DNA from: Candidatus Brocadia sp.
Lineage (GTDB): Bacteria > Planctomycetota > Brocadiia > Brocadiales > Brocadiaceae
DNA length: 64,000 nt
Direction of reading: 5' to 3'
Assembly: GCA_021646415.1 (NCBI GenBank)
Contig: SOEU01000001.1
Span: 124,001 to 188,000, forward strand
The notes below the pieces were generated by a model that worked only from the letters and a program-made list of their open reading frames with translations, searched no databases and was not told the origin of the DNA. Positions 21,736 through 48,966 of this stretch are shown piece by piece. How positions within the stretch are numbered: position 1 is the first letter of the stretch; every line of letters begins with the position of its first letter. Position numbers and translations under genes: made by a program.

Positions 21736-24384
21736 ATGAAAAAGATCATTATTATTGTTCTGAGTGTGATTTTTGTTCTTCTGGTAGGTGCAGTAGTTAC
21801 ACCATTTCTTATTGATCTCAATAAATATAAAGGGGAAATTATCGACCTTGCGAAGCCGCACGTGGCGAGAGATTTGGATTTTGGCGGAATAAAACTCACC
21901 ATTTTGAAAGGGCTGGGTGCAGAGATTCAGGGACTCCGCATTGCAGAAAATCCGGGGTTTGGTACAGGTGATTTTCTGAATCTGGAACGACTACGGGTAA
22001 AGGTAAAATTATTTCCCCTTCTGAGAAAGCAGATTCAAGTCAAGGAATTAATCCTGGATAAACCAGTGGTACGACTGATAAAAAACACAAAGGGGGAGCT
22101 TAATATCACAGACTTAATGGGTTCCGAAACAAAAGAACAAGAAGATAAAGAACAGAAAGATACTGAAAGCCAGGAGGAAAAAGAGAATAAAAATAATGGC
22201 AGTAAAAACGGTGAGAATGAGGTGAAAAACGGAAGTACCTTTTTGGCGGGATTGCTGGTTTCCAAATTTACTTTGAACCAGGGCCACATCGATTTTATTG
22301 ATGAATTCACTCAGCCCGGCACTACCACAACGACAACGATAGATTTGTTAGACATGAAATTCACGGATGTATCAGTGAATAAACCGATCCGGATGTCCAC
22401 GGTGGCCCGGCTGCCCGGAAGTGCGAAGCAAAATTTCATGATAAAGGGTGCTATGGGACCCATTGGTGATACCCTGGATATAAAACGGCTTTTTATGGAT
22501 ATCGCAGTATCACTCGAAGAATTTGATCTGGGTACCTGTAAATCGTACCTGCCGCCAGACCTGCCTTTATCCCCTGTAGACGGGGTCGTCAGCATGGATA
22601 TCTCTTTAAGGGGGGATATGGCGTCCGGAGTCACTTCAGAAGGTCAGATGCAGTGCAAAGAACTGATACTCGCAGAAGGAAACGATAAGAAAGCCCTCAG
22701 GAAAATGCATATTACCCTCCAGGAAGAAATGAAGTTCGCATGGGAAAAAGGAAGTGCGGACATTGACCGGTTGGATTTGAGCATGGATGAAAATACAATC
22801 TCTCTGACAGGAAGCGTGGAAGGATTCAATACGAAACCACAATGGGATATAACCCTTCGGACACAGGCGATCAATCCGGACTATGTCTTTCTGTTTTACC
22901 CTTCTATCAGGGAATCTTTACCTAAGGATGTGAGCTTTTCAGGTTCATTGGGCATGGAGATGATTTCGAAGGGAAATATGGATAATCTCCAGGCTGATTG
23001 CAACGTGGAGATGAAAGACCTCGATATCCTGTATGGTGAGACATTTCGCAAACCAAGACCTGTCCCCTGTCAAATTTCCGTCAAGGCAAGCAAGACAGGA
23101 GATGATATTCATTTAGACCCGTGTGTTGTCAAAATGCATACCTTATCTCTCAGGACATCGGGAAAAATTACCGGTTTAACGAATCCGCGTTTTGATCTTT
23201 CGATAAACACCGATGATACGTCCCTGAAAGGCTGGGAATCACTGGTCCCTGCACTAAAAGAGTACGAACCAGAGGGGAATTTTGTCCTTCGAAGTTCCTT
23301 GAAAGGAACGATGAACGATGCCGCTGTTAATCTGCAGTTTTCGTCTCCAAGGCTTGCATTTAAGCTCTCTCAGTCATCAGACGATGGCCGGAAAGCTGCA
23401 ACTTCTCAGGGTTTTTTTGAATCCATGGATATGAACGTTCAAGCCGTGAAAAAGGATGAGGCAATCATGGGGAGTGGCAATCTTGAAGTCAGGAAAGGAG
23501 AGGTGCTGGCTGCGCCTTTTGAAAAGATGCAGGCACAGTTCGACTACCAGAACGATATCCTCGGTATTCACGGGTTTCGTGTTCATGCCTTCCAGGGAGG
23601 CGTTGTGATGGACGGTAAAGTAAGGCCCCGCGAACTTCGATGGAACGTGAAACCGGTTATTACGAATATAAATATGGCAGAAGCTATGGATACTTTTACA
23701 CAATACAAGGGTTTATTCAAAGGGCTATTTTCCGGGTCTTTTGTGGCAAACAATGCCGGCGATGAAAAACAGAAAGGGGCTATGAATGCCAGCGGGTCAT
23801 TCCGGCTCGACCAGGGAGAGATTATGAATTTAAACCTTGTAGATACAGTACTGGATGCGCTTTTTGGTATAAAGGGCGTATCTAAGTTTCTGGAAAAAGA
23901 AGGCAGTGAATTGGAGAAACAAAAAATTACCCGATTTGATTACCTGGATGGTGATTTTTCCATGACCGGTAATAAAATATATTTAAAGAAGGCCGCTTTA
24001 CATAATATTCATACTGCAAAAGCAACTGATTCTGATGCGTTTATAGATGGGTTAGTTGACTGTAATACCAGCAGTCTCGACCTTAAGGGCAAGGTCGTTC
24101 TCTCCCAGGAATATTCTGCTAAATTAGCCAAAAAGAACGAACCGCTCAATGCCCTGCTCAATCCAGAAAAACGCATGGTGCTTCCGATTACGGTTACCGG
24201 CACTTTCAGCAAGCCAAGGCCTATCCTGGATATCCCCTATGTAACCAGCGCCATGGCGAAATATTACGGCAGGAAAGAACTGGAGAAATTAGGTGACAAG
24301 ATAGGATTGCCCAAGAAAGGTGACAAAGGAAAACAGGGCAAGGAATCACCCATAGGAAATATTTTAAAGGATATTTTGAAATGA
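21736..24384 (+). CDS. AsmA family protein
   Basis: The 882-residue protein has one N-terminal membrane helix (IIIIVLSVIFVLLVGAVVTP) and then the AsmA block FLIDLNKYKGEIIDLAKPHV with LKGLGAEIQGLRIAENPGFG. A charged low-complexity stretch (about 133-165) and a Thr run lie before the long beta-rich middle part. The C-terminal domain includes FDYLDGDFSMTGNKIYLKKA, and LDIPYVTSAMAKYYGRKELE. AsmA-like proteins are bridge-like proteins of the envelope that affect lipid transport to the outer membrane. A diverged second copy of its 3' part lies at 31390-31725. Confidence 0.9.
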   Translation: MKKIIIIVLSVIFVLLVGAVVTPFLIDLNKYKGEIIDLAKPHVARDLDFGGIKLTILKGLGAEIQGLRIAENPGFGTGDFLNLERLRVKVKLFPLLRKQIQVKELILDKPVVRLIKNTKGELNITDLMGSETKEQEDKEQKDTESQEEKENKNNGSKNGENEVKNGSTFLAGLLVSKFTLNQGHIDFIDEFTQPGTTTTTTIDLLDMKFTDVSVNKPIRMSTVARLPGSAKQNFMIKGAMGPIGDTLDIKRLFMDIAVSLEEFDLGTCKSYLPPDLPLSPVDGVVSMDISLRGDMASGVTSEGQMQCKELILAEGNDKKALRKMHITLQEEMKFAWEKGSADIDRLDLSMDENTISLTGSVEGFNTKPQWDITLRTQAINPDYVFLFYPSIRESLPKDVSFSGSLGMEMISKGNMDNLQADCNVEMKDLDILYGETFRKPRPVPCQISVKASKTGDDIHLDPCVVKMHTLSLRTSGKITGLTNPRFDLSINTDDTSLKGWESLVPALKEYEPEGNFVLRSSLKGTMNDAAVNLQFSSPRLAFKLSQSSDDGRKAATSQGFFESMDMNVQAVKKDEAIMGSGNLEVRKGEVLAAPFEKMQAQFDYQNDILGIHGFRVHAFQGGVVMDGKVRPRELRWNVKPVITNINMAEAMDTFTQYKGLFKGLFSGSFVANNAGDEKQKGAMNASGSFRLDQGEIMNLNLVDTVLDALFGIKGVSKFLEKEGSELEKQKITRFDYLDGDFSMTGNKIYLKKAALHNIHTAKATDSDAFIDGLVDCNTSSLDLKGKVVLSQEYSAKLAKKNEPLNALLNPEKRMVLPITVTGTFSKPRPILDIPYVTSAMAKYYGRKELEKLGDKIGLPKKGDKGKQGKESPIGNILKDILK

Positions 24385-31389: not shown

Positions 31390-31725
31390 AATTATGAACT
31401 TAAACTTTATATATACAGTCCGGGACTCATTTTTGGTATGAAAGATGGATCCGGGTTCCTGGTAAAAGAAGGGAGTGAATTGGACAAACAAAAGGCTACG
31501 CGATTTGATTACCTGGATGGTGATTTTTCCATGTCCGATAATAAAATCGATGGGAGTTTCAGCAAGCCAAGGCCTATCCTGGATATCCCCTATGTAACCA
31601 GCGCCATGGCGAAATATTACGGCAGAAGGGAGCTGGAGAAATTGGGTGACAAAATAGGACTGCCCAAAAAAGAAGACAAAGGAAAACAGGGCAAGGAATC
31701 GCCCATAGGCGATATTTTAAAATAA
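31390..31725 (+). pseudogene. Decayed second copy of the asmA 3' end
   Basis: The sequence mirrors the last third of the AsmA gene at 21736: ATGAACTTAAACTTT...ACAGT, then EGSELDKQKATRFDYLDGDF and SM..NKI, then directly SFSKPRPILDIPYVTSAMAK and the same Lys/Gly-rich end. Frame changes near 31430 and a deletion of about 70 codons between NKI and SFSKP show decay. It is on the same strand as asmA, so the two copies flank the genes between them as a direct repeat. Confidence 0.85.
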
Positions 31726-31775: not shown

Positions 31776-32726
31776 TTATAGCAGTGGTCTGGGATACAAT
31801 CGTGTTTCTCTGACAATTTCGGGGACGGCTTCTTCCCATTCCACAGCCATGATGTGGATACCGGCAATGCCTTTGATTTCTCTAACCTGCTCTATGACCT
31901 CCAGGCATATCCTGATGCCCTCTTCCTTTCCTTTCTTGGCGGCAGAAGCGGCCGTCATACGATTCATGACCTCATCAGGTACATCCATACCCGGCACATT
32001 ATACTTCATATGCCTGGCCATTCCGGCAGATTTGAGCGGAGCCACACCGGCGAGAATAAATGCCTTCTCGTGGAGACCCATATCGGTGACCATTTTCATC
32101 CATTCTTTAAACCTGGCGATGTTATAAATAATCTGGGTTTGTATAAAATCGGCACCGGCAGCAATCTTCTTGGCGAGTCTGATAGCACGGAATTTGAATG
32201 GGTCGGCAAAGGGATTTTCGGCTGCACCGATAAAAAACCTCGGCTCTGATGCCTTTAACTCCTGTCCGCACTGAAATTTTTTCTCATCACGGAGGGACCT
32301 GACCATTTGAATGAGCTGGATCGAATCCATGTCAAAGACGCCCTTTGCCATAGGGTGATCTCCAAATTTCTGGTGGTCACCGGTCAGACATAAGAGGTTT
32401 TTTGCACCAAGTGCCGCAGCACCGAGGAGGTCGCTCTGTATAGCAATACGGTTCCTGTCGCGACAGGTCATCTGGATAATGGGTTCTAAGCCAGCATCCA
32501 GGACCACCCGACCGGCGGCAATGCTGGACATACGCACCACGGCGGTCTGGCAGTCAGTAATATTGAAGGCATCCCCATAGCCCTTCAGCAGCCCTGCCTT
32601 CTTTTCTATCACCGAGCGGTCCGCGCCCCGGGGTGGCCCAAGCTCTGCCGTAACGGCAAATTGTCCGCTTCGAAGGATTTTTTCTAAATTACTGCCTGAT
32701 TTTATTTCAGAACTATTTTCGATCAT
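31776..32726 (-). CDS. metF: Methylenetetrahydrofolate reductase
   Basis: The 316-residue protein fits MetF: TAELGPPRGAD with the catalytic Glu (about 25-35), DAFNITDCQTAVVRMSSIAA, CRDRNRIAIQSDLLGAAALG, LLCLTGDHQKFGDHP, and DFIQTQIIYNIARFKEWM. It reduces methylene-THF to methyl-THF in the methyl branch of the Wood-Ljungdahl pathway. A metV gene lies upstream on the same strand, but the two are separated by 600 bases that hold a broken hicB gene and a MITE, so the original operon was probably interrupted. Confidence 0.93.
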   Translation of the reverse strand: MIENSSEIKSGSNLEKILRSGQFAVTAELGPPRGADRSVIEKKAGLLKGYGDAFNITDCQTAVVRMSSIAAGRVVLDAGLEPIIQMTCRDRNRIAIQSDLLGAAALGAKNLLCLTGDHQKFGDHPMAKGVFDMDSIQLIQMVRSLRDEKKFQCGQELKASEPRFFIGAAENPFADPFKFRAIRLAKKIAAGADFIQTQIIYNIARFKEWMKMVTDMGLHEKAFILAGVAPLKSAGMARHMKYNVPGMDVPDEVMNRMTAASAAKKGKEEGIRICLEVIEQVREIKGIAGIHIMAVEWEEAVPEIVRETRLYPRPLL

Positions 32727-32782
32727 AAATTACGTGATAATAAAACCACAAGTCAAACTGTTTGCCTGCTATTCAAAAGGAT

Positions 32783-33298
32783 TTACAACCTTAACATCTT
32801 CAATTGCTTTAAAATCATTCCCATTTCATGCCTGTTTATATGGATTTCACTTACAGGCAACTCAAGATTATTCGTAACACTTTATTTTTTTGAAAAACTA
32901 TCAAGGCAAAGCCTTGTGCTGATTTCGCCCCGGAGGGGCAAATTGCTCATAGGCAGGCAATTTATTGCCTGTGTTAAGAGAAAGATAAAAATAAGCCCTG
33001 TAGGGGCGAATGAAAAAAATACAGGCAATAAATTGCCTGCCTATTGCCTCACGTCCCTATAGGGACTTAAAAAGCACAACTCATTTTTCAAAAAACTAAA
33101 CTGTTTCGATTATTCTTTAATCTGAAGACAATCCATTCTTCCAATGCTTCTCTGAGTTCCTCTCTGTATTTTTCAAGGGTTTTTGCTTTTCCCCATACAC
33201 CCTGAAAGCCAGAAATCTCCCACCCAGTATGTTCCTTCGTCTTCGATTATCTCATAGTGGGCAAGCCCCATTGTCTTCTGAATATACACGGTTAACAT
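32783..33298 (-). pseudogene. HicB-like antitoxin gene broken by a MITE and a frameshift
   Basis: From an ATG at 33298 (after AGGAG) the minus strand reads MLTVYIQKTMGLAHYEIIED and EGTYWVGDF. One extra base near 33205 shifts the frame; the next frame gives GFQGVWGKAKTLEKYREELR and EALEEWIVFRLKNN. If the MITE (32874-33107) and one copy of its 8-bp duplication are removed, the frame goes on as LELPVSEIHINRHEMGM and ends at 32783. This is a HicB-type fold. No hicA is seen. Confidence 0.8.
32874..33107. mobile_element. MITE family 1, copy 1 (234 bp, 8-bp TSD)
   Basis: The ends are GTAACACTTTA-TTTTTTTGAAAA and TTTCAAAAAACTAAACTGTTTC, imperfect terminal inverted repeats. The duplicated target GATTATTC is at 32866-32873 and 33108-33115. 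The interior is a row of palindromes (CGCCCCGGAGGGGCA, AGGCAGGCAATTTATTGCCTG, GTCCCTATAGGGAC). It lacks a 57-bp segment that copies 2 and 3 have. It sits inside a hicB-like gene. Confidence 0.92.
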
Positions 33299-33328
33299 GG
33301 CATGTTTCTCCTATAAAATAGGACGGTT

Positions 33329-34006
33329 TTATTGCTTTTTCATGACCAGGTGTTCAAGAACCATCTTCCGGGGATGGTTTTCCATACCCGTGGTCCAGTC
33401 CTTTGGGGGTACAATCCTCTCCATCGTCGCTAAAAGCTGCTGGGTGTCCAGCTGGTCATATATCTGATGCCACACACAGGGTGTCTCTTGCGAGACCTCG
33501 CACTTCCCGTTTTGTGAACCGCCGCACGGGCCGTTCATGAGGCTTTTTGCACACCGGCTTACCGGGCACAGCCCTCCCGTAGTTCCCAGGATACAATTCC
33601 CGCAACCGGCACACCGTTCCCAGAAGATGCCTTGTTCGACAGGTCCTCCCATAAAGGTGGTATTTACCCCCGGGAATATCCTGATCCCGGGGAATTTTTC
33701 GGCCATGTACTGCACGCCGACACCACAGGCAATGGAAAGGACGGCATCACAGTCTTCAATTACTTCTTTAATATCATCAATAAATTCCCACTCACACTGC
33801 CTGAGTGTGGAATCTTCTTTCACTTCAATCTGTCTGCCTTCTAATTTCGCAGCAAGACGGAGTTGCGCAGCAAGCTCGGTAACCTGTTTCTCGCCACCCG
33901 TATGGCATATGGTCACACATGAACCGCATCCCAGCACACAAACCTTCCGAAACCCGGAAAGCATCTGTTTGATTTCTGGAAATGGTTTTGATGATGCTAC
34001 AATCAT
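33329..34006 (-). CDS. metV: MetV-like zinc/Fe-S partner of methylene-THF reductase (MTHFR C-terminal domain protein)
   Basis: The 225-residue protein has an N-terminal Cys set VCVLGCGSCVTICHTGGEKQ and a C-terminal set CAGCGNCILGTTGGLCPVSR followed by CAKSLMNGPCGGSQNGKCEV. This is the pattern of MetV, the small subunit that connects MetF to its electron donor in acetogens. It is likely to hold Fe-S clusters and zinc. It lies between metF and the GltD-ferredoxin-MvhD fusion gene, which may pass electrons to it. Confidence 0.9.
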   Translation of the reverse strand: MIVASSKPFPEIKQMLSGFRKVCVLGCGSCVTICHTGGEKQVTELAAQLRLAAKLEGRQIEVKEDSTLRQCEWEFIDDIKEVIEDCDAVLSIACGVGVQYMAEKFPGIRIFPGVNTTFMGGPVEQGIFWERCAGCGNCILGTTGGLCPVSRCAKSLMNGPCGGSQNGKCEVSQETPCVWHQIYDQLDTQQLLATMERIVPPKDWTTGMENHPRKMVLEHLVMKKQ

Positions 34007-42342: not shown

Positions 42343-42369
42343 CAGGAATTTTTCAAAAAACTAAACTAT
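42343..42369. mobile_element. Solo terminal repeat of MITE family 1
   Basis: TTTTTCAAAAAACTAAACTA and TTAC match the family-1 terminal sequence (compare 48944-48966). No second end is nearby, so it is a remnant. It lies 20 bases before riboswitch 3. Confidence 0.6.
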
Positions 42370-42388
42370 TACTAAAAAAATAGATATA

Positions 42389-45035: not shown

Positions 45036-45326
45036 GTAACACTTTAGTTTTTTGAAAAACTATCAAGGCAAAGCCTTGTGCTGATTTCGCCCCGGAGGGG
45101 CAAATTGCTCATAGGCAGGCAATTTATTGCCTGTGTTAAGAGAAAGATAAAAATAAGCCCTGTAGGGGCGAATGAAGATTATGGATACACAATCGCCTCA
45201 ATCGTCCCTACGGGACTGTATTTCTCTTTGATAAAAATACAGGCAATAAATTGCCTGCCTATTACCTCACGTCCCTATAGGGACTTAAAAAGCACAACGC
45301 ATCTTTCAAAAAAACTAAACTGTTTC
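45036..45326. mobile_element. MITE family 1, copy 2 (291 bp, 8-bp TSD)
   Basis: Ends GTAACACTTTAGTTTTTTG and CAAAAAAACTAAACTGTTTC. The target AAAAGAGT is duplicated at 45028-45035 and 45327-45334. The interior matches copy 1 but has an additional 57-bp segment with a GTCCCTACGGGAC palindrome. A short frame inside it is also present in copy 3, but I do not regard it as a gene. Confidence 0.92.
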
Positions 45327-48676: not shown

Positions 48677-48966
48677 GAAACAGTTTAGTTTTTTGAAAGA
48701 TGAGTTGTGCTTTTTAAGTCCCTATAGGGACGTGAGGCAATAGGCAGGCAATTTATTGCCTGTATTTTTATCAAAGAGAAATACAGTCCCGTAGGGACGA
48801 TTGAGACGATTTTGTATCCATAATCTTCATTCGCCCCTACAGGGCTTATTTTTATCTTTCTCTTAACACAGGCAATAAATTGCCTGCCTATGAGCAATTT
48901 GCCCCTCCGGGGCGAAATCAGCACAAGGCTTTGCCTTGATAGTTTTTCAAAAAACTAAAGTGTTAC
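48677..48966. mobile_element. MITE family 1, copy 3 (290 bp, inverted relative to copy 2, no TSD)
   Basis: It is almost identical to copy 2 read on the other strand, from GAAACAGTTTAGTTTTTTG to CAAAAAACTAAAGTGTTAC. The flanks GGAATTTG and TAAAGATA do not match, so this copy is probably a recombination junction. The right end cuts a nucleotidyltransferase gene. Confidence 0.9.

Follow-up and report, generated by a model that had tools for sequence, protein, structure and literature searches.

The gap between metV and metF in a genome of a Candidatus Brocadia sp. holds the remnant of a hicB-like antitoxin gene that is broken in frame, fused to the tail of a PIN-domain gene and interrupted by a 234-bp MITE with IS66-type ends. 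We favour, with a probability of roughly 0.87, an account in which a hicBA module was gained early, a PIN gene pair joined it, and a deletion, a frame break and the insertion of an IS66-moved MITE reduced it to its present state. The stretch of DNA analysed, here called the window, is 64,000 nucleotides long and belongs to a genome of 3.81 Mb in 42 contigs. The features concerned are the following.

31776-32726, minus strand: metF, methylenetetrahydrofolate reductase (Pfam MTHFR, E 7.1e-40)
32769-32825, minus strand: PIN-domain (VapC-like) gene tail of some 18 codons and the stop (tblastn, 78% over 18 aa)
32846-32873, minus strand: the final 9 or so codons still recognisable as hicB, where BLASTN of the joined flanks ends
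32866-32873: target-site duplication copy 2, GATTATTC (8-bp identical repeat)
32874-33107, plus strand: MITE of 234 bp, its interior 56 bp shorter than in the 290-bp full form (copy comparison)
32874-32897, plus strand: terminal inverted repeat, GTAACA end, one mismatch against the IS66-type repeat pattern
32902-32916, minus strand: terminator-like hairpin from the MITE (consensus scan; others at 33023-33049 and 33021-33044)
32949-33044: palindrome doublet, 27-nt arms at 32949-32975 and 33018-33044, like the doublet beside a Y1 transposase gene
33084-33107, minus strand: terminal inverted repeat, GAAACA end (end-repeat pattern scan)
33108-33115: target-site duplication copy 1, GATTATTC (8-bp identical repeat)
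33116-33298, minus strand: N-terminal part of the hicB-like remnant (UPF0150-like), frame break near 33,220
33329-34006, minus strand: metV, MTHFR C-terminal partner, DUF5981 (Pfam PF12225, E 6.4e-36)
45036-45326, plus strand: second MITE copy (L007), exact 8-bp duplication AAAAGAGT
48677-48966, minus strand: third MITE copy (L005), without a matching duplication

The broken hicB and its PIN tail

Both metV and metF lie on the minus strand and are confirmed by Pfam, as is consistent with the preliminary description, which had placed a gene between them. Upstream of metV, a 689-aa protein bears pyridine-nucleotide oxidoreductase, ferredoxin and FlpD (methyl-viologen-reducing hydrogenase delta) domains by Pfam. 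The gap itself (32727-33328) is overlapped by no frame of at least 60 aa in the ORF list, stops are present in all three minus-strand frames of the region, and its DNA is most likely non-coding now. Elsewhere in the window, a 170-nt direct repeat (24199-24368 and 31552-31721; 91% identity) and a further repeat pair (23861-23978 and 31430-31547; 85%) suggest a duplicated gene region.

Read on the minus strand from the ATG at 33298, the hicB read-through matches Pfam UPF0150-like (PF21748) with an E-value of 2.9e-27 over residues 5-67, and its two pieces alone with 1.7e-5 and 9.2e-13; NCBIfam gave the read-through no name. The remnant is 77-90% identical at the nucleotide level to hicB of six relatives, and the frame break announced upstream of the element is present, near 33,220. 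When the flanks of the element are joined, they align with the relatives through hicB to about position 32846 and then end, leaving some 28 bases of hicB (32873-32846) past the element. From about 32827 to 32727, the window instead matches Brocadia sp. MAG_8 over 101 bp at 92% identity (genome E-value 3.0e-36); in MAG_8 this DNA is the 3′ end of a PIN gene and the following pre-metF spacer, and about 1.3 kb separates hicB from the PIN tail and contains most of the PIN gene along with frames of 211 and 78 aa. The window therefore carries a hicB::PIN-tail fusion produced by a deletion relative to MAG_8, in which the 18 or so junction bases (32828-32845) are unassigned. The HicB C-terminus of about 30 codons that removal of the element had been said to restore is thus not one: about 9 codons are hicB, and the rest is mostly PIN (VapC-like) tail read out of frame. 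A DUF2442-type gene was also considered for the C-terminal read-through and dropped, since MAG_8 shows a PIN gene there.

The MAG_8 PIN gene matches Pfam PIN (E 2.1e-13), the 78-aa gene upstream of it is without a Pfam match, and the 1.3-kb insert also holds, by eye, a scrap like the end of hicA. The 211-aa frame (L082 4493-5128), likewise without a Pfam match, is partly matched in the S40-1 gap (L085) by a relative at 49%.

Identical copies of GATTATTC on both sides and membership of a 19-copy family bear out the report of a 234-bp MITE within a hicB-like gene, and the exact ends and 8-bp target length given for it agree with the empty sites of relatives. Its terminal inverted repeats have 34-nt arms that are 85% complementary. 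The element thus displays the hallmarks of a MITE, being geneless at 234 bp (290 bp in full form), with terminal inverted repeats, a target-site duplication and ends common to an autonomous transposon.

The metV-metF gap across relatives

A total of 23 metV-metF gaps was surveyed, the window included. Collinear BLASTN of the joined flanks demonstrates a single-copy site in AMX1, BIN37, MAG_8, S40-1, nzgw512, G022 and the G005 tail. Empty sites had been proposed as the check on the insertion, to be contradicted by sites without the predicted hicB frame; they were found, and the relatives carry the frame, with hicB about 16-35 bp after metV. Sequence of hicB is present in 10 of the 23 gaps, namely in the window, as a tail in G005 and Ca. 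B. pituitae, as a stub in AMX3, broken in AMX1, truncated in MAG_8, and in BIN37, S40-1, nzgw512 (with a run of N) and G022. Five gaps hold hicA sequence, whole in BIN37, S40-1 and G022 and partial in AMX1 and nzgw512, and the PIN gene or its upstream gene occurs in four (a tail in the window, a fragment in G005, a relic in Ca. B. sapporoensis and whole in MAG_8). The other 12 gaps, of 2-171 bp, gave no match; the G021 gap, by eye, opens with a hicB-like leader and stub.

In BIN37, S40-1 and G022, full-length hicB and hicA stand side by side, the gene for the HicA toxin domain coming after the hicB-like gene as in HicBA modules. The BIN37 HicA matches PF07927 above the cut-off (E 1.3e-8), and its hicB product matches UPF0150-like with 1.2e-29 and HicB_lk_antitox with only 0.032. 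These pairs are predicted HicBA toxin-antitoxin modules. The search for a hicA partner advised earlier gave a full-length hicA in three relatives and no match in the gap of the window. The matches to hicA within the window's own genome belong to other loci (C2:262790-262996, 45%; C4:6230-6385, 31%). The site in the window differs from a HicBA module in that a broken hicB alone remains, with no hicA match beside it and with a Pfam match to UPF0150-like rather than to HicB_lk_antitox.

Other invaders have reached the same gap. In Ca. B. pituitae it is filled by a DDE transposase gene. In Ca. Brocadia sapporoensis, a decayed vapBC-like pair lies between metV and metF (L081 4175-4669), and this relic holds a different element of 129 bp, with IS66-type ends and a duplication agreeing in 7 of 8 bases, which is an independent hit on the gap. 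In Brocadiaceae, the metV-metF gap is a place of repeated invasion and erosion.

It might be asked whether the MITE itself killed a working hicB, the frame break and the loss of hicA following because the module was dead. Over the left 120-141 bases of the window copy, most copies of the element in the genome match it at 96-100% identity, and its duplication is exact, which only marks the insertion as recent. The order of events is not readable from one sequence, and G005 and AMX1 lost hicB by other routes in gaps free of the MITE, so that decay in these sister genomes and generally needs no insertion; we consider this order of events unlikely.

Less probable still is that the MITE was retained as a regulatory hairpin attenuating metF relative to metV. 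Between 32600 and 34100 (1501 bp), a consensus scan gave six terminator-like matches against a shuffle mean of 1.7, three of them within the MITE, and these three on the metF strand. The minus-strand RNA of the MITE-bearing stretch folds at -99 kcal/mol (z -10.3), and its single-stranded DNA at -55.1 kcal/mol (z -9.5). Any copy of so palindromic an element would, however, score alike wherever it lay, and relatives do not share the MITE at this site. The hairpins may possibly act on metF transcription as a side effect of the insertion, reducing metF expression.

A MITE with IS66-type ends and an apparent Y1-type interior

In the window's genome, 19 copies of the MITE are readable end to end or nearly so, with 6 further pieces at contig ends. 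Exact 8-bp duplications surround 11 of the 19, the window copy included, and two agree in 7 of 8 bases; six have no matching flanks (L005, L006, L013, L014, L019, whose left end is lost, and L068). In L068, a second end repeat follows directly, and the flanks match as GATTTAAC if the outer repeat is taken as the end. The 24-nt terminal repeat has 82 matches in the genome and none for the reversed control, which, together with the 19 copies and their duplications, places the window element beyond chance. The same repeat also surrounds quite different interiors of 138-349 bp at some places; L102 493-841, L104 296-542 and L105 221-358 show IS66-type end repeats around unrelated palindromic interiors. 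One copy (L020 1511-1800, L103 584-873) has its interior inverted between the palindromes, with a further IS66-type end repeat some 170 bp away, and a solitary end repeat with one mismatch lies in the window at 42349-42372 on the minus strand. Within the bacterial family, 32 of 33 genomes, this one included, match the 290-bp element somewhere, mostly in part. Near-complete copies elsewhere are found in MAG_8 (97%) and G027 (86%), both with an exact 8-bp duplication, and G025 has a shorter copy without one.

The ends of the element point to its mover. At C3:170677-171593, the genome contains an IS66-type transposase relic with a MITE end repeat directly after the stop codon; the left end of this relic was looked for and not found, so that an active source is not demonstrated within the genome itself. 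Relatives of the relic protein, at 82-92% identity, occur in G005, G020, G028 and G029, a subfamily that surfaced only with the relic's own protein as query. Seven IS66 elements (G005, G020, G028) could be read at both ends, and all seven, with lengths of 2412, 2413 or 2368 bp, carry GTAACACTTTAGTTCTTTGAAAAA at both; their 8-bp duplications are exact in five, with 6 of 8 bases alike in one and 3 of 8 in one. An eighth stretch was too short for this comparison. The usual left end of the MITE copies agrees with the GTAACACTTTAGTTCTTTGAAAAA repeat in 23 of 24 bases. The transposase of one such element (L191 in G005) matches PF03050 with an E-value of 6e-36, and a DruA-like gene (PF14236, E 1.7e-41) precedes the transposase gene in this element (L191 654-2892).

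Members of the IS66 family have GTAA ends. The MITE shares these with the family, along with 8-bp target duplications and a DDE_Tnp_IS66 transposase in full elements with the same ends; it differs in being geneless, with a match seen at the end repeats only. Because its ends match full-length IS66 transposons of sister genomes, an IS66 transposase likely moved the MITE, and we infer that it did so in trans.

Scans of 30 IS66 loci of this genome and the genus (L076-L079, L114-L139) gave no repeat pair around a transposase; an end repeat lies just after the gene in L076 and L078, both the C3 relic, and elsewhere in the stretch in L115, L127, L133 and L134. L065, a place on C4 where two end repeats stand 1.6 kb from each other, was rejected as autonomous source, because its broken DDE_Tnp_1 gene has different end repeats of its own and both MITE-type repeats face the same way.

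The match to IS66 was seen at the ends, and the interior palindromes go with a different transposase. In the genome, 45 occurrences of the palindrome TAGGCAGGCAATTTATTGCCTGT stand against none in the control; by position, 43 of them fall within MITE copies or their end pieces, and the remaining two flank a single Y1 (IS200-like) transposase gene (E 1.7e-27; L066 1211-1822, equal to C2:342711-343321). This distribution makes the MITE look like IS66-type ends enclosing a REP-like doublet of Y1 origin. Being short and geneless, with inverted end repeats, target duplications and many near-identical copies, the element resembles other MITEs, from which its palindrome-doublet interior tied to an unrelated (Y1) transposase sets it apart. 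Two earlier papers (PMC3116915, PMC3733652) describe REP doublets as well as transposase genes bordered by repeats of this kind. The present interior is like the REP doublets, REPINs and RAYT transposases of those papers in forming an inverted hairpin doublet that also flanks a Y1 gene, and unlike the REP doublets and REPINs in that nearly all doublets here lie inside DDE-type end repeats.

The palindromes beside the Y1_Tnp gene could also be taken to mean that the window element is a REPIN-like doublet moved by the Y1 transposase, and not an IS66-type MITE. We regard this as very improbable, as the mobile unit ends at the IS66-type repeats with their 8-bp duplications, outside the palindromes, and 43 of the 45 palindromes sit in MITE copies or pieces. 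An assembly chimera at the repeat, brought to mind by the six pieces with which the MITE breaks contigs elsewhere, is hardly credible for a unique 234-bp variant that is internal to a 440-kb contig, has an exact duplication and is bordered on either side by collinear hicB sequence.

History of the gap and its meaning

In the favoured account, the metV-metF gap would have gained a hicB-hicA module early in Brocadiaceae, and in at least some Brocadia this module would have been joined by a VapC-like (PIN) gene pair. In the lineage of the window, a deletion would then have taken hicA and everything up to the PIN-gene tail, the hicB frame would have broken, and an IS66-moved MITE would have entered the hicB part with its 8-bp duplication. 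That the module arrived early, and in what order the frame broke, the deletion occurred and the MITE came in, is what we infer. The proposal that the operon was split first by an antitoxin gene and then by a MITE keeps its order, according to the empty sites of relatives, and needs correction as to an antitoxin alone, since the cassette was a full hicBA module.

A MetV-MetF tree of 22 rows groups the window with G005 and AMX1 at 93/93, just below the starred level, and hicB is broken differently in each (MITE, frame break and deletion in the window; the tail alone in G005; frame trouble and a partial hicA in AMX1). On this tree, presence and absence of cassette traces require at least five changes, four of them forced by well-supported branches. 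The likeness of the leader that follows metV in several genera points to an old module, often lost. Identity of hicB follows that of metV only moderately (r 0.58 over 21 pairs) and exceeds it in some pairs, such as the window and BIN37 (89.4 against 83.2), so that horizontal exchange of the hicBA module between genomes is possible. Against the account as a whole count the at least five changes of gap state and this moderate tracking, the relic state of IS66 in the window's genome, the right end of the MITE, which is GAAACA and not GTAACA, and the 6 of 19 copies without matching flanks.

A search of open-licence papers on anammox mobile elements, toxin-antitoxin systems, metV/metF and IS66 MITEs found nothing on this MITE. 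The case in the window is well explained by known processes and documents genome decay clearly, if in a fairly ordinary form. One operon gap of a slow-growing bacterium presents a series of toxin-antitoxin modules, intact, truncated, fused, MITE-bearing and erased. It can be advanced tentatively, and with considerable doubt, that IS66-type ends in anammox bacteria may serve as a general carrier that captured a Y1 palindrome doublet, that the resulting hybrid MITE of two transposases spread through the genome, and that such elements may repeatedly seed transcription-stopping hairpins in the toxin-antitoxin debris of the methyl-branch operon (in the window and, independently, in Ca. B. sapporoensis). 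A MITE family and its probable transposase are defined here in Ca. Brocadia, with inside and ends that trace to two unrelated transposase classes, and it is this hybrid make-up, together with the repeated invasion of a single operon gap, that forms the more interesting side of the finding.
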